This document shows positions 3,705 to 59,605 of a DNA stretch of 64,000 nt, one piece after another. Where the stretch lies: NCBI GenBank assembly GCA_039096225.1, contig JBBPEB010000014.1, forward strand, positions 947,501 through 1,011,500. The letters run 5' to 3'. A model generated the notes under the pieces. It worked only from the letters and a program-made list of their open reading frames with translations, was not told the DNA's origin and searched no databases. The DNA comes from Blastocystis sp. Blastoise. Lineage: Eukaryota > Sar > Bigyra > Opalinata > Blastocystidae. The position numbers and the translations under genes were made by a program. Each line of letters starts with the position of its first letter. Position 1 is the first letter of the stretch.

Positions 3705-5128
3705 TTATAATATAATATAGATCATACAAGGTCTAGGAGAAGGTGTATATCGTCGATATCGAAAAGAGCCAGATCCATAACCGCGGGAAGTCGTCGTATC
3801 TTGACCTGAAGGAGAACTGTGTATATTTTTTTTATTTATAGAAATATTTGTTAAATTTATATATATATGTACTCTAGATGAAGAAGGAGATCAAGTTTTT
3901 TATCTTCTTTTTCTTCTATGTAAATAAAAGAATAGAATAATAAATAGAATAGAAAATATTAATATATATATATTAATAATACAGAAAATATATATATATA
4001 CCTGATGTTTCAACATTAATATTTGATTGTGAGGCAGTTCTTCTTAATTGTTTTGAATGGATATATTGCACTGATTTCTCATGGGAAATAGGAGATTTTA
4101 AGAGATCGGAAGAAAGAGGAGCAAACGAAGGAATTGTGTCGATACTATATATAGGAAATAGTATCATAGAAAATATAGTTCATGAATATATGTATATATA
4201 TATACATTTCTTGAGGTGTTTCTAACATATATTGATATATAATATCTGTAATATGTTTCTATATATTACAAAATGAATATATGTTTTGTATACAAGGGAA
4301 ATAAGAATAATTGAATACTAATATATAGGGATAGAGTAATAAATCATAGATCGAAGGCCTCTTTTCAGGATCATCCTATATAGAATAAGAATATATTTAA
4401 TCTTTATATATATACATATATATATATATATATACATTCATCATGGATATACACAGTCGTTTTAAATCAAAAGAATATGGTCCTTCAAGTGGAGCATATT
4501 CATTGTGGGTAATTGCATACATTACCGCGGGAATATTAGATTGTTCAAAAGGTGGATGTAGAGTTAAACACTCATATAATATACAACCTATTCCCCATAT
4601 ATCTGATTTCTCATTATAACCGCGGTTTTTACATATTTCTGGTGATAAATATCGTGGTGTCCCAATTAATGTATGAGCTAACTATATATATATATATATA
4701 TAAGTAATACATGGAAAATAGAATTGAATATATATCATAATATATATATATATATATATATAGATTTAAAAATATACATCATTCTGAATAATTCGTGCTA
4801 CGCCAAAATCAGCTAATTTCAGTACATAACTAACTCTGTATGGATTTCGTTTCTTTTGAAACAATAAAGCACTTGCAGGAGACTCAAGATCTATATATAT
4901 ATATATATATATATAAACTACAATATTACTGAATAGCATAAATATATATATTCAATAAATAAAAATAATAAAAATAATAAATAAAGTATACATACCTTCA
5001 TCTTCTTTCTTCTCTATTTGATTATATTTTCGTTTACCTCCTTTTTTTACTAATACATTTGTAGGCTTTAAATCGCGATGTAATATATTCCTATAAAAGA
5101 AAATAACATAATTTAGAATAACTAGTAA

Positions 5129-29079: not shown

Positions 29080-30596
29080 TCTTTAGACTAGTACATTTCA
29101 CTCAATGTTAATATCAATACAGCAATATGTTCTTTATTATATTCTCGTTTATTTTCAATATATTGAGTATACATCTCTTTCTACAACATTAAATAATTCT
29201 TATCCTCCTTTATTTAAATGTAAATATATATATATATATACCATGATTGATATTATATTATTTTACTCTACTTCTATCGTAATTTGACTTATCTTTAACA
29301 TATATATATATATATAATCCATAATACTTTATTCAATAGCATCATATGTATCTTCATCTTTATTCACGGGTATTATTCCGATAAACAATCTTAACAAGGG
29401 TACTGGCTGTAGAGTATATAAATGGTATATACAATAATATAGATCCTAACAATACTAAATACTATAAATATATATTATATTACTACTCTTAATATTACTT
29501 ATAGTATATATAAAGAAAAGACTGTTTGTTTAAAATGCCTTGAAAATCCATCATCTCCTCTCTCTATCGTTCACTTCTTAAGAGAAATATATTATCAAGA
29601 ACAAATTCATCACAAATATATTATTCAAGTATTCTTATATATATTTTATCACTCTCCCTCTCTCTATATATATATTGCCTTTATATAACTATTATTGTTT
29701 ATATTAGATATATGGAGTATCTGTCTATAAGAATCACTTATGTATATTAATGGAATATGCACATCAAGGAACACTCAGAGATTTATTACGTGGAAAGTAT
29801 TTATATATATGTTATATATATATAACTTTATATCAAAATAGTATTGTGATTATAAGATATCTTTATGTATAGTTATCATCAATATATATATAGTCCTAAA
29901 TATAAATATAAATCTTATAATAATGTTCCTATGAAAACTAGAAGACAAATATGTATTCAGATTCTTAAGGGTTATCAAATATTTTCAACATTAAATATAT
30001 GTCATCGAGATATTAAAGTATGTAAAATATACAGCTATTTATATATTTATATATATATGTTTTATTTTATTTTTTTTATTATTTGATTTAACTATATATT
30101 TACTATTAAATGCAATTTAATATATACTTCTAGATATATATTCTAAGCTAAATAATAATATTCTATAAAGCCAGATAATTTTGTGATTGATAATAACATC
30201 ATTAAATACTGTGATATGGGGTTTTCCAAAGAAATGAAAGATGATCTATGTAATCATACATTATGTGGTACAATTGAATACTGTGCTCCAGAAATCTTAG
30301 AATGTCAAGAATATAATAATAGTGTAGATATATACTCAATATCTCTCACTTTATATGAAGTTATTACTGGCCATTATTTATTTGAAGATCTCAGAAAGTC
30401 GATGAATCGTAATGAATTTCGAAAACGTATTGTATCGTTTACGACAGATATATATTTGTCTTATCAACTTCCTAATATATTACGTGATATGTTTCAAATA
30501 TGCATATTAAATAGAGATAGAAAACGACTTTCTATTAATGAACTTCTAGGAATCATTTCAAAATGGAATCCTAATGAAAAAGTGTCAATCTTATAG
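28528..30596 (+). CDS. UEV-like domain fused to a protein kinase domain
   Basis: Exons 28528-28962, 29087-29219, 29340-29424, 29505-29628, 29708-29796, 29873-30017, 30171-30596 sum to 478 residues in phase. Residues about 20-190 fit the plan of a UEV (TSG101-type, catalytically dead E2) domain: FDEEIIKSLFNAY, EIYGILVLPDI, YLQRNLYPRSIPAVLI, NKNFWDEWRD followed by a long helix. Residues about 200-478 are a kinase: VCLK with K228, MEYAHQGTLRDLL, HRDIKPDNF from H333, DMG (352-354) in place of DFG, GTIEYCAPEIL. Catalytic residues are present. A UEV next to a kinase in one chain is not an arrangement I know. It suggests a kinase recruited to ubiquitin or to ESCRT/PTAP-type partners (inference). The acceptor of the last intron is AAG rather than TAG. 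Confidence 0.75.
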
Positions 30597-30843: not shown

Positions 30844-31039
30844 TCCAGTGATAGTATTGAATAAAGTGATGAAATAGAGGAAAGAGATGATAGAGAAGAT
30901 GATAAGATTCTGGATATTGAATGAGATATAGAGAGAAGAGAATAGGATAATAATAGAATGAATAAAAATAAATAATTACGAATAAGTTTGAATAATGTTG
31001 AATATTCCAAGAGTTGATATTAGCTTTATAGATATTCAT
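30844..31039 (-). pseudogene. Truncated 5' end of the TMEM260-like gene
   Basis: Minus-strand copy of the first exon (30980-31039), first intron and the first 66 nt of exon 2 of the gene at 48228-51706. It stops at the outer breakpoint of the repeat, just before the conserved GGDNADF motif, and unrelated sequence follows. It cannot make a functional protein. Its presence shows that the left arm is the derived copy. Two substitutions relative to the right arm fall in its intron. Confidence 0.9.
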
Positions 31040-31492
31040 AGTAAAAAATATAAATAAAAAAAATAAATATAAAGCTAAATAAAAAAAATAAATAAAATAA
31101 AATTAAAAAATAGATAAAGATAGAAAACACATGAAATCAATGTGTGTTTTAGTGTTTTTAATAAGAATAAAAAAGTATATATATATATGATATTAAAAAT
31201 AAAAGAATTATGAATAATAATAATTTTTGAGAATAGAAAAAAAGAATAAATATTATATAATATATATTTATAAAAAAAAGAATAAAATAATAATAATAAA
31301 AACATAAAAAAATATGAATAGAATAAAATATAGATAAATGAGATGAATAAATAATAAAAAATAGAGAATAGATGAATGAATATAAATAAAAATAAATATT
31401 TGAATATTAAATAAATAATAATAAAGAGAAAGTAATAATAATAGAATAGATGATGATATGAAATAATGAAGATTTTTAGAATAAATAGAATC

Positions 31493-31564
31493 GCTTAGAT
31501 AGTATAGTTGGTCAGTACTCCACGTTGTGGCCGTGGTAACCCGTGTTCGAATCACGGTCTGAGC
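31493..31564 (+). tRNA. tRNA-His, anticodon GTG (left copy)
   Basis: 72 nt. Acceptor GCTTAGA pairs with TCTGAGC (one G-T pair), anticodon arm CCACG-TTGTGGC-CGTGG gives anticodon GTG, and the T arm is CCGTG-TTCGAAT-CACGG. D region TAGTATAGTTGGTCAGTA serves as A box. Five T follow directly as terminator. Identical to the copy at 47703-47774. No intron. Confidence 0.96.
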
Positions 31565-31896
31565 ATTTTTATTCTTTTATTCTTTTATTCTTTTATTTAT
31601 TTTATTATAAAATAATATATTTGTTATCAATTATATACTCTAAAATAAAATATAATTTTTAGAAAATAATAATAATAATCAAAATCAAAATAAGAATTCA
31701 AAAAACAAAATTTAAAAGAAATATTTAAAAAACAATCAAAAGAAAATTTCTTTTTTTTGATAGAAACAAGAAAGAAAAGAAAAGAAAACAGAGAAAAAAC
31801 AATAATTATTTTGTACTTGATTTTGATTTTTGTTTTTATTGTTATTTATTGCTTAATATTTGTTAATAAGATATACTAATAATAATAAAGATAAAA

Positions 31897-36613
<4,717 letters not shown>

Positions 36614-37136
36614 TATTATTTTATTCATTTTAATTTCTTTATATATATATATTTTTTTATTATTAAATGAAATCAAATAATATTTATATATATATTCTTT
36701 TCTCTTTCTTTCATTTATATATATTGCTTGCTATTTTTTTCACATTATTGTATATTAATTCATATTTATTATAGTTTTCATGTAAAGGTTATGTTGCTAT
36801 GTTATTATCGACAATAATAACAATATATATACAAACGTCTATATTTTAACAATTTTGTACAATATTTTTTTAAACAATACAAATATTTTATAATTATATT
36901 AAGAAAACAATAGAATTGAATAAAAATAAACAATAATATCTGTTACCAATAAGAAAAAGAAACGAAAACGAAATAAAAACGTCGAGTTAATTAATTTTTA
37001 TTAAAGGTAAAAATTAACAGATATGTATTTTTACATTATTTAAATAAAAATATATTAAAAAAATTATATATATAATATAAATGATAATAAAAATTAGATA
37101 CTTGCTGAGATTGTTATTATATAGAAATAAATTTCT
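36614..37136. other. Intergenic across the inner end of the left arm
   Basis: 3' flank of the left transportin gene. The inverted repeat ends at 36767, and unique AT-rich sequence follows up to the convergent Asteroid-like gene. No supported gene. Confidence 0.5.
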
Positions 37137-38157
37137 TTATTGTTGAGTGATGAACTTGAAAAGATTGTCAATTTCCTGTTCAATATCTTCATCATCATCA
37201 ATAAATGAGCTATATATATGAATATAATGATATGTATAGATAACGATATGTATATATATATACTCAAACATAGAGAAATCTTGATAGTTCTCGTCATCAG
37301 CAAGGAATGCATAAAGAGATATTAAATAGCCATAGCAAACATTCTAGAGAGAAAGAGGATACATAGAAGAATAAGAATAAAGAAGAATGACTATATACAT
37401 TAATATATCCCGATATGTTGAAGTAGAAGCTGGCAATGATGGAAAGAGAGTTCAGTATATACTATAGAAAGAAATATAATATAGGTGAAGAATCTATTAT
37501 ATATATATATACTTTAACTGTTTCATTAACTTCTATTATGCTATTATTCACAATGGGTTCTCCTTCATCTAAATATTCGTAAGAAAAAAATATATATAAT
37601 AATAAAAGGTGAATAATATATTAATATTGTAAATAAAACATTTAAATACATACATGCATGAATATGATTTGTATAAAGGCAGATGATAAATGTACGGAGA
37701 AGAAGAGGGTTTATATCAGGAATGTACTTATGAAGAAGACTAATTAAATAAATGAATAGATAGATATATATATATATATACATACTATATTAATTATATA
37801 AAAATATATAAAATCCAAAAATAATAAATAAAGATATCGAGAGAAGAATATAAGAAACTTATTATATATATATACAATAGGGAGACAGGTAAAAGTGGAT
37901 TAACATGAGTATAAATAGATGCATTATACTCATAGGTGGCCATACCAAAGAACTTAAAGAAGCTCTTCATGTTCTTATCAAAAGGTCTCGTTTGCATGTG
38001 AAGGAGGCAATGCAAAGGCACAAATATATCTTCAATAGTGTTTGAAGTGTTATCAAGAGGAAGATTCATAGGGTTCACATACTTCATGGTATTAACACAT
38101 ATATATCTCCATAAGATTTTAGAATCCTTCTATATATATATAGATGGTCACTGATGG

Positions 38158-38196
<39 letters not shown>

Positions 38197-39914
38197 AAGT
38201 ATTTCATAATAAATGTCTCATAGAATTGTCGAATAAAATCGATTAATGAATCTATATATATATATAGTATTTATCAAATATGTAGATAACAAATAATTAT
38301 AACATGAATAAATAATATTTACTAAAATAATAAAACATAAGAATAGAAAAAAAATATTAAACAAAATAACAATAATAAACTAAAATAACAGTTTTTACCT
38401 ATTTTGTTGCTAGTGGATAATCGCGGGACAGAAAAGATGCAGATATGATTAAATAGAAAGCAGTAGAGATCGGCGACTAAGGATCCCTCACAGAGATATT
38501 GAATAATGACTTTATACTCTTCTGTTTCTAGGAAATGATCCCAAATAAGTTTTGTATTTATTTGAGGGTTATTATACAAGCAATAAGGGTAATCATAATT
38601 TAATTGAGAGGAAAACAAATATAAATGATCATTTACCTATATATATGATTAATCATTTATATAATATATAATAATATACTTCTTTTTCATATTTACTTAA
38701 AGCATATGAACTAGGATGATATAGAAGTTGTTTTAATAAATAATATATATTATTATGATATTTAGAAATAAGTTCACCACGCTTCTGAAAGCTATCTATA
38801 AAAAATAAAAACATAATTTGATAAAAAGAGATAAGATAAAAAGAATAGATATACGATATATATTGTTATATTGATCTGAGATTTTAAATACTTCCGTTCC
38901 AGAGAGAACGCCAAAGAGCGGGAATTGAGCGATTGAGCACTTAACACGTTGGGAGACGAGTTCAGGAGAATAATAAGTAATCGTAAGAAGAGAATCTATA
39001 TGGAATATTATTATAATTATGATAAATAATATACATGATTCGTAAATTCTAATAATATATATATATATATATATATACTCTGATCAAATGAATTAAATTG
39101 TAATCCCTCTAAATCAGTCATATCAATATAACCACGAATATCGAACATAAATAAATCACTATCATTACCAATAACAAAGTAATTATTACGTTTGGCAATA
39201 CAAGCTAACTCACTAGAGAATATATTAATAAATTAATTATATAATGAAAAAACAAAGATAATACCATAATTGTTATGAATTCTTTCTATTATATATATAT
39301 ATATACCGATCTGCATCTTCCACTGAATTTCTTACTTCGAAATTATTACCATGTTTATGACTCAGTTTGATAAATATTTTAATAAGTAATTCATGTAACA
39401 CAATTGAAGGAACTAGAAAATATTTGTATATAAACTACATAAATAAAATAAACATACAAGAAAAACCTTTCGTAGGAGATAATTTACTATAATCTCTTTC
39501 AGATTCATTGACTGATTTTCGTCGTCGTTCATATTGAGTTGATAATCTATCTTCCACGAAGCCACCATCAAATATTATATTCTTGATATAAATATTATGT
39601 CTCATGAGGTTATTTAAAAATGTATCTATGTGCTTTTCAATGGCAGTAGGACAATCATCATCAAAAGGTTCATTACAACCAAAGTACATATGATGCTTAA
39701 ACGCACTTCCATTCATAACAACATAGTTCTTTACATTCGTATCACTAGATTTTTATAAATTCATATATTTACAGATATATCTTTGAAAATATAGGCACTA
39801 AACAAAAACTAAAAAGAAAATATACAGAGGAACTTTACAAGTAGCAGGTGAATAAGGTTTCCCCATTTTATCCTGCTTAGCGTCAATATATGTCTTTAAA
39901 CCACGAATACCCAT
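37137..39914 (-). CDS. Asteroid-like protein (XPG/FEN1-type PIN fold), 14 exons
   Basis: Minus-strand exons: 39826-39914, 39458-39744, 39307-39412, 39079-39212, 38855-38995, 38680-38795, 38399-38636, 38196-38251, 37876-38129, 37654-37739, 37513-37568, 37399-37461, 37264-37343, 37137-37209. They sum to 592 residues with all phases agreeing. The N-terminus MGIRGLKTYI is the start of the XPG-N/Asteroid fold. IIFDGGFVEDRLSTQYERRR matches the second conserved block, and RELACIAKRNNYFVIGNDSD followed by LFMFDIRGYI matches the XPG-I-like block of Asteroid proteins (ASTE1). In vertebrates ASTE1 is a structure-specific nuclease acting in double-strand-break repair choice. The key acidic residues DGG, E and DSD are partly visible, but I cannot say whether it is active. 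The C-terminal half is helical without a known domain and ends in a short acidic tail. Confidence 0.8.
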
Positions 39915-40236
39915 TGTCGTATTTGTATCAATACCTTATATAAAAAGCCTGAATATATATAAATATAAGTATCTTATGTAGAATATTCTTACCAGCGTTC
40001 TTTTAAAGAAACTATTGTATATCCTGACGAATACGCACAAAATACTCAAGGACGGAATGCAAACATTGAATACTTCTTAAAAATTTTCAGTTTCCCGAAT
40101 AATCGTAACTATTGTGTTTTATACAAAGGAAATTTACTTTTCAATCATTTAGCTGTTATTGAGAGGATTGGGATAAATTTATTAGTCAATATATCTATAT
40201 TCATCATATTTGATCTATCTAAAGAAAGATAAAAAA

Positions 40237-41747
40237 ATGGTTGTAGGGTTTAACGATATGTTTCTGTACAACTCGGTCACATTTATCTTGTTCTTTCTGG
40301 TATACGATAGAATAAAATGTTCTTATTATTTGTTTATGCCTTCTAACAGTTCTACAATGTATAGTGCATATTCCTGAGTGGTTCTTTGACGTATTCAATT
40401 CAAAGAAATTATTCTATAGCTCTGTTGCATATTCAGCATTTCCGTAACGGTGCTATGAGTGCGAGATATCGTATGAGTGGTTTGCAAAAGTCGATAATTC
40501 ACAGTCGTCAGTCATTAGTCACAATTCATTCGTCACCAGATGGAAATCAATTAATACAAACAAATCATGAATTTTCACCGTCTGTATTAAATTCTGTTCA
40601 TGTCTCTCTTCTATCTATTTCTGAGCATAACCATCTTTATAAGCATAAATTAGATGAGAAATATATGATTGGTGAACTTGTTTATATATCACGCAAATCT
40701 TATTTACATGATCTTGATGAAACACTTTATTTAGATCCAAATTATATGTCTATTCATGAAGAATTCAAAAATAATCAAAATCAATACTATTATTTTGCAC
40801 AACATAATGAATCGTTAATTCAAAATGAAAAACGATATCAATATAGTTCGTCCAAGTATACTATTCCCTCTTCTCTACGATTTTCCTTTTTATCCTTACC
40901 TTATCATGCAGATGATCGAATACATGATATATTTAATGGGTATTCAGTTATTCTATTTATTAAAACACGTCCAGATGGATTTGACAATCGTCAAGGTATT
41001 CGAGAAACATATGGGAATAATTCAGTAACAAGCAATATTATACGTTATTTCTTTGTGCTTGGAGTCAATCCTACACAGTTATCACTAATTAAAGATATTT
41101 ATGATGAACAAGCCAAGTATAATGATATTATTTTTGAGAATATTATTGATTCCTATCAGAATTTAACATTAAAAATGATGATGGTTGAAGATTTATATGT
41201 ATTATCCAACAGTCAAAATGAATTTATTCTATTTACAGATGACGATATATGTTTAAATACTAAGAAACTTATTCACTTCTTGGAGAAAAAGAAAGGTGCG
41301 TCACTTGTCAGTTCGTTTTCCTCCAATCAAATGTCTTCTTCTATTGGTATGATGAACAATTCTCTATCTCTATATGGCGGAGGGTGCTACTATCTAGATA
41401 AAAATAATAAGAATCCAGAGTCTCTTCATTATATTCCTCCATTTATTGTGAAGGAAGTTTATTATGTTTTTGGACCCTTAATTTATACTACTCCCGCGGT
41501 TATTCAGAAGCATGTTTCGGTCATGAGAACAATTCCCTACTGGTTTCATGTTGATGATGTCTTTATGGGTTATTTAACAAAACTAATATCTCAACGTATC
41601 TCTTTTGAATCTTCATTTATTATAAGTAGCTATGAAAAAGAACGATATACAAAAATTGAAGATAAAACCTCAAATGTTATGGCTCTTAATTATGTTCGTG
41701 GATATAACGATTATCATACTATTTGTACCACTGTCAATCATCTTTAA
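40237..41747 (+). CDS. GT31-family beta-1,3-glycosyltransferase, type II membrane protein
   Basis: Two exons, 40237-40299 and 40365-41747, give 481 residues. The small first exon supplies the signal anchor: LYNSVTFILFFLCIFLSG spans the junction and gives a single N-terminal membrane helix, as expected for a Golgi enzyme. The lumenal domain carries GT31 (PF01762) landmarks: RQGIRETYG, DSYQNLTLK, FTDDDICLN (DXD motif), then GPLIYTTPAV and VDDVFMGYL. It likely transfers galactose or GlcNAc in beta-1,3 linkage, with donor and acceptor unknown. This is the most intron-poor multi-kilobase gene in the window apart from the last exon of the surface protein. It lies in the spacer of the inverted repeat, its 3' end facing the right-arm transportin. 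Confidence 0.88.
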
Positions 41748-42567
41748 CTATATATATCTACATATTTTAATATTTTTACAATTATTCTATTATGGTTTTA
41801 TAAATATATATTTTATTATTCAATTGTATCGTATCTCACGAAATATTATGTAAATACGTGTTTACTCCTTATGTAGTTTTTATTTAATGAATATTTTGTT
41901 ATAAATCAAATATTATTGATGAAAGTGATTCTATTATTCTTTAATTACTCTTCTACTGTACATATAAGTACATGTAATACTTATATATTATAAACATATA
42001 TATATATATATAACTATTAAGTAATTTATCCACTTTATCCATTATTTTATTGTTAGTTTGTTATCTACTGGTTTTCTTTCTGCTTCCCTTTTGATTAATA
42101 CTTATTTGTGTATTTCTAAGAAATTACCAAGATTCTTGTTTTGTTTTTGTTTATGGCATTACTTGGCTTATTTAGTGTTATAGTGCCATAAAGATGAATT
42201 ATTTATGCTCATAATAATACTTATATCAAGTCTATAACAATATATATGACTTAATTAGATTCTATGTTTTAGAATATATAAAAAATAATTCATTTTATAT
42301 TTACATATAAAATATTTCATTAAAAGTTTCTATATAGTCAGGAAGATATGGACAAAAGTGTTTACAAAGCATTATAACTTACAAATATCTCAATTTTTAA
42401 ATCTATGAGACATTAAAATTTAAGTTACTGATATTAAGCAAAATTTGTTGCAATTCATAGCATTTATTAATATAAATTAATGACCACACATACTAAAAAA
42501 ACTAACACAAAATTAGTAGTAACCTGAATATAAAGGTATTCAATACTAGAATATGTTTAACATAAAC
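41748..42567. other. Intergenic up to the right-arm inner end
   Basis: About 800 bases of AT-rich sequence between the GT31 stop and the start of the right arm. No ORF or RNA supported. Confidence 0.5.
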
Positions 42568-42721
42568 AAATATGAATTAATATACAATAATGTGAAAAAA
42601 ATAGCAAGCAATATATATAAATGAAAGAAAGAGAAAAGAATATATATATAAATATTATTTGATTTCATTTAATAATAAAAAAATATATATATATAAAGAA
42701 ATTAAAATGAATAAAATAATA

Positions 42722-47370
<4,649 letters not shown>

Positions 47371-47702
47371 TTTTATCTTTATTATTATTAGTATATCTTA
47401 TTAACAAATATTAAGCAATAAATAACAATAAAAACAAAAATCAAAATCAAGTACAAAATAATTATTGTTTTTTCTCTGTTTTCTTTTCTTTTCTTTCTTG
47501 TTTCTATCAAAAAAAAGAAATTTTCTTTTGATTGTTTTTTAAATATTTCTTTTAAATTTTGTTTTTTGAATTCTTATTTTGATTTTGATTATTATTATTA
47601 TTTTCTAAAAATTATATTTTATTTTAGAGTATATAATTGATAACAAATATATTATTTTATAATAAAATAAATAAAAGAATAAAAGAATAAAAGAATAAAA
47701 AT

Positions 47703-47774
47703 GCTCAGACCGTGATTCGAACACGGGTTACCACGGCCACAACGTGGAGTACTGACCAACTATACTATCTAAGC
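47703..47774 (-). tRNA. tRNA-His, anticodon GTG (right copy)
   Basis: Exact reverse complement of 31493-31564, with the same flanks and the same T-run terminator on the minus strand. Lies between the divergent transportin (minus) and TMEM260-like (plus) starts. Confidence 0.96.
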
Positions 47775-48227
47775 GATTCTATTTATTCTAAAAATCTTCA
47801 TTATTTCATATCATCATCTATTCTATTATTATTACTTTCTCTTTATTATTATTTATTTAATATTCAAATATTTATTTTTATTTATATTCATTCATCTATT
47901 CTCTATTTTTTATTATTTATTCATCTCATTTATCTATATTTTATTCTATTCATATTTTTTTATGTTTTTATTATTATTATTTTATTCTTTTTTTTATAAA
48001 TATATATTATATAATATTTATTCTTTTTTTCTATTCTCAAAAATTATTATTATTCATAATTCTTTTATTTTTAATATCATATATATATATACTTTTTTAT
48101 TCTTATTAAAAACACTAAAACACACATTGATTTCATGTGTTTTCTATCTTTATCTATTTTTTAATTTTATTTTATTTATTTTTTTTATTTAGCTTTATAT
48201 TTATTTTTTTTATTTATATTTTTTACT

Positions 48228-51200
48228 ATGAATATCTATAAAGCTAATATCAACTCTTGGAATATTCAACATTATTCAAACTTATTCGTAATTATTTATT
48301 TTTATTCATTTTTTTATTATCCTATTCTCTTCTCTCTATATCTCATTCAATATCCAGAATCTTATCATCTTCTCTATCATCTCTTTCCTCTATTTCATCA
48401 CTTTATTCAATACTATCACTGGAGGTGACAACGCTGATTTTGTTATTACGTCTGTTAAAGGATCTATTCCACATCCACCAGGTATTATTATATTATTTAT
48501 AAAATAAAAACAAAAATTGTTGACGGAATTTAAACTTATTTAATGATTCTTTGCTTATTTAGGTTACCCACTTATTACGATATTAGGACATGCATTCATT
48601 TATTTATTTCCAAATACAAAAAATCCTGCATATCAATTAAATTTATTAGGCGGTGTATTTGGTTCATTGGTTTCCATATTTATTTTTGCATCGACCTATT
48701 ACCTAACAAATGGATCGCTTCTTTTTTCTTCATTATCATGCTGTAAAAATATTCATAATATATATATATATTTTATTTTATAGTTTTATTTTGTTTCAGT
48801 GATGTTACATGGTTGAATTCTGTTCAATTTGAAGTTTTTGCGCTTAACAATCTACTTCTTTCTATTATTTTTTATCTTTTAATAAAGATTAATTATTCAT
48901 ATTGGAAAGAAAACAAGCGAAGCTGTATCTGTTTAATTATATATATAATTAATAAAAGACTAGGTCTATATTATTCGTATCTTGGATCTTTATTTTGTGG
49001 CTTGGCTTTATGCAATCAACATACATGTGTATTTTATATATTTCCTTGGATATTAAATGTATTATATATTCTTTATTCTCAAAATATATTATTTCACCCT
49101 TTGTCAAAATCATTGAATTCAACTTCGTCATCTATTTCTAAACTAGACACTATATATCCATTATTTATATTGATAAGTCTATTTATATGTGGTCTTTCTC
49201 CGTATATCTATTTATATGTCGGTGCTTTAAATCCTTCTTTAAATTCATGGGGAAATACAGCAACACTTAAAGGTATATATATATTTTTTATTGTAGTTAT
49301 TATAGTTAGTACTTTTATTTATTTTAATTTATATATATTTATCATTGTTATTAAAAATAAAATTATTATTTTATTTTAATATATTAAGATACATTAGTTA
49401 TTTATTTATGTTAAATAATATATAAACTGAATATATGTATTATAATATATCTATATATCTATCTATTAGGATTTCTTATACATGTATTACGTCAAGAATA
49501 TGGTACATTTCAACTCTATTCAGATAAATCTACAGATTTCTCGACAAGAATAAAGAATTTCTTTCATGGCTTATATCTTTTCTTTCATTTTTATGATAAA
49601 GTATATATTAAATCTGTTTTTTAAATATATATTAAATATACTTTAAATCTATATATTAAATAATATATTAAATATGTATATTAGTTATTTATATTTATAT
49701 ATATTAGTCAACTTACTACGTGTGTCTTCCTTTTGCTTTTTATGCGATGTATATATATATAAAACCGAATAGCTTACATCAACGAAAAGAAGAAAAACAA
49801 ATATACAGTTTAAAACCATTATATGTTTGTATTGTTTTTTCTTTTTGGTTTTATATCTGTATTTTCCATTTCTTGGCCAATCTTCCATTAGAATTAAATC
49901 CATTGTATATATATATACATATATATAAATGAATCACAATTTATTTAGGTATTTGGGAGTTCAAAAACGTTTTTGGCTTCAGGGATTATTCTTATTATCT
50001 ATTTTAACTTCTGTAGGTCTATTTCATTTCTGTCAACTTATTCATGCTTTTATTAATAAATATACAAATAAGAGTATTAATAAGAATATAAATCCATCTT
50101 CAATATCCTCCTCAACATCGAATTCTATTACTTCTAAAAGACATTCTTATATTACTAAGGTCACTACATCTATTGGATATATTATTCTTGCTCTTTTTAT
50201 GTTTCTCTATATATTTCCAACTTATAATCATATACATACTATTACACATAATAATTATTATTTAGAATATTATGCAAAGAGTTATATTTCCTCTCTTCCT
50301 AAGAACAGCATCTATATTCTTTGGGGAGATTTACAACAATATAGTATTACTTATTTACATGAATGCTTACATTTCCGTGAAGATATTCTGATTTTATCTC
50401 TTTCTCTTGCCTCTTATGATTGGTTTATTCCTCAACAACAGAGAAATCTTCCGGGAATTGTGTTTCCAGGGATTATGTACCATCCTCTTGGACATAAATA
50501 TAAGAATTGCTATAATTTAAAGTATATACATTTTTATTTACAAAAAAATATATTTTATTTATATTTATATATCTCATATATATAGGGAGTTTATTGATGC
50601 TAATATAGACAATCATGATATATATATAGTAAATTGGTTTGAAGGTAAAGATGAGCCAAAAGAGTTCTATGATCTTCTACCTTTAGGATTAGGTTTTAAA
50701 GTATATATATATACTTCTATGTGTTTATATGTACATATCATTTTATATTTTGTAGCTTTTTTATTATAACACTAAATATAAATTTATATATGTTAATTTA
50801 TATAAACTTAAGTTAACAAAACACTATATTAATGTTATTTATGTATTATATAATATATAGGTCGTTCCTAAGCAGTTTATAGGTAGGAATGAATGGTTAG
50901 ACGAAGCTATTTCTTCGATGCCCTTATTTCAACTGCCTTCGAATCCAGATGATGATTCATTTGATAAATTACTTGTTACTGAAGTGTGGAACGCGAAATA
51001 TGTATATAGTTTTTATTATTCTAGAATTATTTAATATAATAAATTTTTATTCATAAATTATTTAATATAATGAACAATTATTCTAGGTTTATTTAATATA
51101 ATAAATTATTATTCTAGAATTATTTAATATAATTAATTATTATATAGACATTTATCAATTTCTTTTTAAGAAGCCCTAATCGTTATTCTTTGGATGATAT

Positions 51201-53066: not shown

Positions 53067-59605
<6,539 letters not shown>

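Follow-up and report, generated by a model that had tools for sequence, protein, structure and literature searches.

Can two copies of a gene agree in every coding base and still differ in the introns that they carry, and how might such a state arise? This question is raised by a window of 64,000 nucleotides from Blastocystis sp. Blastoise (C8:947501-1011500; G+C 22%), the whole stretch of DNA analysed here, which belongs to an assembly of 33.3 Mb in 34 contigs. The window contains an inverted duplication, and each arm carries a gene whose predicted product has sequence likeness to importin-13 (E 5e-8) and transportin-3 (E 3e-7), with an Xpo1 domain. Gene models built separately for each arm gave identical spliced coding sequences of 2703 nt, encoding 900 aa. 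Of 21 intron sites, 15 were common to both copies, four were occupied only in the left copy and two only in the right copy (Table 1). The presence or absence of these segments is confirmed at the sequence level. The arm alignment returned exactly the six unpaired segments named in the original prediction, and the separate gene models bore out its count of 15 common introns. The reading that we favour, with a probability of about 0.58, is that short spliceosomal introns have been lost repeatedly and precisely through spliced messenger RNA (mRNA) or complementary DNA (cDNA), with gene conversion keeping the copies identical in their bases.

All six unpaired segments were cut exactly at GT...AG. 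Such ends occurred in 0.13% of random arm segments of the same lengths, so their appearance in six of six is beyond chance. The junction placement was free of ambiguity (0 nt) at four sites, and was ambiguous by 1 nt at site 20 and by 4 nt at site 3. If left unspliced, five of the segments would shift the frame or hit a stop; the 48-nt segment at site 19 does neither, and taken alone could be a coding asparagine run. From the splice-site ends and the reading frame, we infer that the unpaired segments are spliced introns.

The arms pair from 30844/48423 to 36776/42559, with the terminal positions 36768-36776 merging into unrelated sequence. The original prediction that the exons hold no substitution agreed with the identical coding sequences. 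Its statement that the arms differ by only two substitutions had to be amended. Besides those at 30954 and 30956, within 30844-36767, we noted single mismatches at 32862 and 34778, both inside repeat-rich introns. Repeat lengths also changed between the arms, by 2, 3, 1 and 48 nt. With 202 nt of left-only and 86 nt of right-only introns, the arm length difference of 68 bp adds up as claimed (202 - 86 - (2+1+48) + 3 = 68). The 48-nt change is in a microsatellite within the longest intron listed in Table 1, which consists almost entirely of TTTATA/TTTTTA repeats and is open in several frames.

The unpaired introns were not spread evenly over length or position. In gene order they are sites 3, 14, 16, 18, 19 and 20 of 21, and none is longer than 56 nt. 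Six of the 12 introns of at most 58 nt differed between the copies, compared with none of the nine longer ones (Fisher p=0.017, with the 58-nt cut picked after the data were seen). A rank test that needs no cut gave a similar value (Mann-Whitney p=0.019). The unpaired sites also leaned toward the 3' end, both over all sites (rank sum p=0.033) and among the short introns (p=0.013). The last five short introns all differed, as did one of the first seven.

Table 1. Features of the window and variable sites of the transposon family
Feature	Position	Strand	Remarks
Left arm of inverted duplication	30844..36776	+	last 9 bases fade out
Right arm of inverted duplication	42559..48423	-
Left importin-13/transportin-3-like gene	31897..36613	+	19 introns in model
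Right copy of the gene	42722..47370	-	17 introns; end points carried over from left via arm alignment
Left-only intron, site 3 of 21	32307..32352	+	46 nt; placement ambiguity 4 nt, AG|GT
Left-only intron, site 16	35369..35424	+	56 nt
Left-only intron, site 18	35795..35846	+	52 nt
Left-only intron, site 19	35966..36013	+	48 nt; unspliced, frame kept and no stop
Right-only intron, site 14	44771..44805	-	35 nt
Right-only intron, site 20	43192..43242	-	51 nt; placement ambiguity 1 nt
Long intron common to both arms	34732..35264	+	533 nt left, 581 nt right
tRNA-His, left arm	31493..31565	+
tRNA-His, right arm	47702..47774	-
Spacer between arms	36777..42558		holds Galactosyl_T gene 40365-41747
Surface-type protein gene, He_PIG domains	53067..59605	+	C22 paralogue (L034) has one extra 46-nt intron
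Site of intron absent from window copy	54058..54059	+	intron present in C22 (L034) and C26 (L048)
Transposon site A (putative intron)			35 nt; full: L009, L011; empty: L010, L029-L033
Transposon site B (putative intron)			38-39 nt (~52 if first GT used); full: L011, L030, L031, L033; empty: L009, L010, L029, L032
Transposon site C (putative intron)			39-42 nt; full: L009-L011, L032, L033; empty: L029, L030, L031

Recurrence in other genes and in a transposon

Such differences recur in a surface-type gene, in a kinase gene and a minus-strand reading frame on contig C33, and, as intron-shaped sites, in a transposon family. Among the intron-bearing gene pairs read, four of five showed at least one exact short-intron difference, with three duplications represented; the HSP70-like pair was the one that did not differ. 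In total, 8 of 37 intron sites were unpaired (transportin 6/21, surface gene 1/8, kinase 1/5, HSP70-like 0/3), a count that leaves out the minus-strand gene. Across all loci, the unpaired introns measured 35-57 nt.

The surface-type gene of the window differs from its C22 paralogue at 6 of 1264 exon bases, and has seven introns against eight over the stretch read. The extra C22 intron has exact edges, and the spliced frames are open in both copies. The C26 paralogue, which is 67% identical here and 94% identical in the downstream exon, carries an intron at precisely the same site. Because both the C22 and the more distant C26 paralogue have this intron, the simplest reading is a loss from the window copy. 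The surface-type proteins, which have Ig-like He_PIG domains, form a large family, with 67-95% DNA identity to the window copy, and the C26 member is itself a mosaic (94% downstream, 67% upstream).

The C33 duplication (701450-710100 and 1067810-1076608, ~366.5 kb apart) came to light through constant offsets in an HSP70 search. In one part of it (L054/L055), 3150 aligned nt contained no substitution, and the sole difference was a 51-nt intron, not counting 51 nt that overhang at the edge of the retrieved sequence. This intron, absent in L054, interrupts a minus-strand reading frame four codons from its start; the pieces of that frame that were tested had no Pfam match at the cut-off. The HSP70-like gene in the same part has, by our own reading, three introns of ~60, 190 and 84 nt, and all are kept in both copies, which is consistent with a size limit. 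Another part (L056/L057) contains the protein-kinase gene. Its exons differ at 18 of 1349 bases, and one of five complete introns by our own reading, of 57 nt, is unpaired. A search of the kinase family found no equal-score pair among the candidates scored (126/351). Nine comparisons of contig-start duplicates (C6, C7, C10, C11, C14, C17), which are largely repeats, yielded no indel that was flagged as intron-shaped, and this weighs against wide recurrence. Contigs C4 and C17 open with CCCTAA repeats.

The transposon family is an element of 7.9 kb whose ends carry CACTGGTAGGCA in inverted orientation by our own reading, seen for example in the copy L009:2069-9955 (C21:1049068 onward). One strand looks like a transcript of ~50-nt exons and ~50-nt introns, with the exons apparently non-coding. 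The exon next to site A has stops in all frames (own reading of one exon), and the transposon introns are therefore putative. Three intron-shaped sites varied among eight element copies. Site A was empty in six of the eight, and four nearby intron-shaped sites of about its size were full in all eight. From these eight copies, the 35-nt intron at site A was first read as a gain. This was overturned by a diverged homologue of the intron in L035 and the identical L036, which is absent from L037. The homologue polarises site A: presence is the older state, and the putative intron was lost. In L039, a piece of equal length is missing, but the aligner placed it off the splice sites. No source for the 35-nt intron was found in the genome within 3 mismatches over 30 nt.

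Probable gene conversion and the age of the copies

The original prediction took the identity of the exons as a sign that intron turnover is far faster than base substitution. The C33 duplication does not support this claim as stated. One part of it differs at 44 of 1993 bases (97.8% identity) and another at 0 of 3150, an outcome with a chance of about 6e-19 at the kinase exon rate. Such unequal divergence along one duplication apparently reflects gene conversion that reset the base clock, and the unpaired 51-nt intron lies within the homogenised stretch. Base identity is therefore no clock here for the age of the copies. Dating the arms by base identity was accordingly dropped, and the intron differences may have arisen earlier than the identity implies.

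The large differences that persist in the arms are the six introns and the 48-nt microsatellite change. Their survival would follow from conversion that passes over large loops, or from losses that postdate conversion. In the two pairs whose exons are not yet identical, the comparison continues to favour introns. One of eight intron sites differed at an exon divergence of 0.5% (6/1264), and one of five at 1.3% (18/1349). These less homogenised pairs suggest fast intron turnover, on few data and with pairs that are perhaps partly converted. For scale, a survey of grasses that analysed 25,535 intron sites lists 883 presence/absence cases (PMC4256211). A tentative proposal, which we hold to be possible rather than probable, is that spliced RNA or cDNA serves so frequently as a repair template in this lineage that short introns are removed singly, at a rate per intron above the rate of substitution per base, with conversion fixing the bases and sparing intron-sized loops. 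If it is true, intron state would drift without regard to the base sequence, with the genome midway through shedding its short introns.

Loss against artefact and gain

In the loss reading, cDNA, or spliced mRNA serving as a repair template, would pair with the gene, and the introns would bulge out as loops in the heteroduplex. Small loops would at times be resolved singly to the intron-free strand, and long loops would stay. Resolution loop by loop would leave a mosaic, in which each copy loses other members of a group of short neighbours and both keep the long introns between them, while gene conversion between the copies would wipe out base differences. Earlier accounts describe a reverse-transcription model with precise removal and a 3' bias (PMC2395259), and argue that a long intron should disturb the alignment with cDNA and hence be lost more rarely (PMC4683709); readier loss of short introns is also among the published predictions (PMC4256211). 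The precision of the removals seen here, their small size, their lean to the 3' end in the transportin gene and the polarity of two sites accord with this model. PMC2395259 also offers another path to internal losses, by recombination of a loss allele with an intact allele.

A reverse transcriptase seems to be available in the genome, where 18 of 21 RVT_1 matches were near-complete without a stop, 10 of them with an identical score. Reverse-transcriptase domains of identical score stand in tandem at a spacing of ~8.5-8.6 kb on C10, C13, C14 and C29. Twelve genes, several with identical scores and so not twelve independent cases, matched without break or stop over stretches of 624-1824 nt, and it is to the matched stretches that this applies. 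They comprise two EF1A-like genes (663 nt each), one EF2-like gene (675 nt), two tubulins (624 nt each), two actins (1107 and 1104 nt) and five HSP70s (1815-1824 nt). These labels are presumptive, and genes of such types are usually highly expressed. At the density of the transportin gene (21 introns per 2703 nt), stretches of this length would hold several introns each. Further members of the EF, tubulin, actin and HSP70 families matched in pieces.

Several observations weigh against loss through spliced RNA. Plain replacement by cDNA predicts loss in blocks, but sites 18 and 19 in the right arm are the one adjacent pair that is jointly absent. Each copy lacks different sites, and long introns persist among the short ones that are missing, a mosaic unlike the block loss of simple replacement. 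The intron lost in L054 sits at the 5' end, contrary to 3' priming. No relative with a readable transportin gene was found that could polarise the six sites, and the 900-aa product, searched against proteins, matched none of the best 8000 candidates, which were scored. A query with 431 bases of the gene turned up no intron-free third copy. In the transposon family, site B is empty in the diverged subfamily L049-L051 and in the closer L053 (L052 was not readable), so that absence may be the older state here, leaning to gain. All four pairings of presence and absence are found for sites A and B, and likewise for B and C, which makes recombination among element copies as possible as repeated loss. 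Finally, no intron difference was seen in the near-identical element copies L030/L031, L035/L036, L037/L038 and L039-L042.

Loss at the six transportin sites is a probable reading that draws in part on the polarity of two other sites. The original prediction spoke of intron gain or loss in progress; this narrows to loss at the two polarised sites (the surface gene and site A), with site B pointing the opposite way.

An assembly artefact could produce much of the same pattern. If reads derived from spliced RNA entered the assembly or its polishing, they might have deleted short introns from the consensus of one copy. Exact splice junctions, identical exons, a size limit of ~60 nt and a 3' bias would be expected, and all are present, as are intron-free consensus sequences in highly expressed genes. 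However, RNA reads map equally to base-identical copies and should cut both, yet the arms differ, as do L054 and L055. Transposon site A is empty in six of eight copies while its four putative neighbours of similar size are full in eight of eight, and in L054 the lost intron is so close to the start codon that 3'-biased RNA suits it poorly. Artificial removal of short introns only would also leave the long ones (9 of 21 exceed 58 nt in the transportin gene) in the twelve unbroken genes. None of these four points is decisive. We found no report of polishing artefacts of this kind in the openly licensed literature searched, and regard the artefact as unlikely.

Recent gain, by insertion of short AT-rich introns into one copy, appears quite improbable. 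Gain and loss look alike at the six transportin sites, where the introns are AT repeats of one style, and three diverged copies of the transposon lack the site B segment. However, the two sites polarised elsewhere are losses, and a target-site duplication is absent at four of the six transportin sites. The 35-nt transposon intron is also without a source in the genome. Gain by introners was likewise disfavoured by the missing target-site duplication and, for that one intron, by the missing source; the search for a source covered this transposon intron, those of the transportin gene that are unpaired being simple repeats.

Programmed or enzymatic excision of introns at the DNA level, in the style of the eliminated sequences of ciliates, would account for the precise and scarless absence of GT...AG segments from the DNA. 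Nothing demands it: the boundaries are splice sites, and like introns remain in the DNA of both copies, making this explanation very improbable. Ordinary deletion by slippage or end joining, exact by accident, is scarcely credible: AT repeats are prone to deletion, and the 48-nt microsatellite change shows that such events happen here, but direct repeats are absent from the edges of four of the six unpaired introns, similar to 13 of the 15 shared ones, and no imprecise deletion that removed one splice site and left an intron remnant was present in the coding pairs read.

Some further features stand apart from these arguments. Apart from short repeat-like matches, no second copy of the spacer between the arms was found in the genome. 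A genome search placed protein-kinase domain matches in the window at 30165-30548 (+), just outside the left arm, and at 4502-4864 (-). Contigs C9 and C12 carry mitochondrial genes (nad11, nad7, nad9, nad5 and rpl2 by our own reading, the nad7 label being backed by a protein search), and have 972 identical bases in common within the parts read. A 259-aa stretch of nad7 matched an ENA record at 93% identity; among the 120 matches listed of 6392, the best one bearing an organism name was Polymyxa betae at 71%. Large open frames on C11 (L022:6081-10000) putatively encode a Helitron-type replication protein.

Comparison with known systems

Intron loss is usually inferred across species, where its traces have blurred; the losses known from grasses reportedly span deep time. 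Copies with identical exons display the products before any base change, so that the precision of the junctions, the limit on size, the bias in position and the mosaic pattern can be read directly. If reads confirm the differences, this genome may provide a system in which intron loss is common enough to be measured, along with its dependence on reverse transcriptase. If the differences prove to be an artefact, they call for caution with assemblies of AT-rich genomes that are dense in introns. In the openly licensed literature searched, we found no account of gene copies that match base for base and yet differ in their introns. The most likely process is an established one; in that literature we found no description of it in so fresh, so frequent and so mosaic a form.

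Introners resemble the present case in that short introns occur in some copies only (PMC9860276). Unlike introners, most sites here lack a target-site duplication, and the one intron searched has no source. Daphnia pulex also has recent presence/absence states inside one species (PMC4202315). These are mostly gains (90), 61% of them with internal direct repeats, with losses at 7 loci; in contrast, the two polarised cases here, coding or coding-like, are losses with exact edges. In grasses, small introns were repeatedly lost at the same sites (PMC4256211), between species rather than between near-identical duplicates as seen here. A further likeness is to the reverse-transcriptase (mRNA-mediated) losses described in Dictyostelium (PMC4683709) and Cryptococcus (PMC2395259), which share precision, a 3' bias (seen here in the transportin gene), the presence of reverse transcriptases and an expected earlier loss of shorter introns. 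Those losses were inferred between species, whereas the differences described here lie between copies with identical or near-identical exons, and form a mosaic in both.

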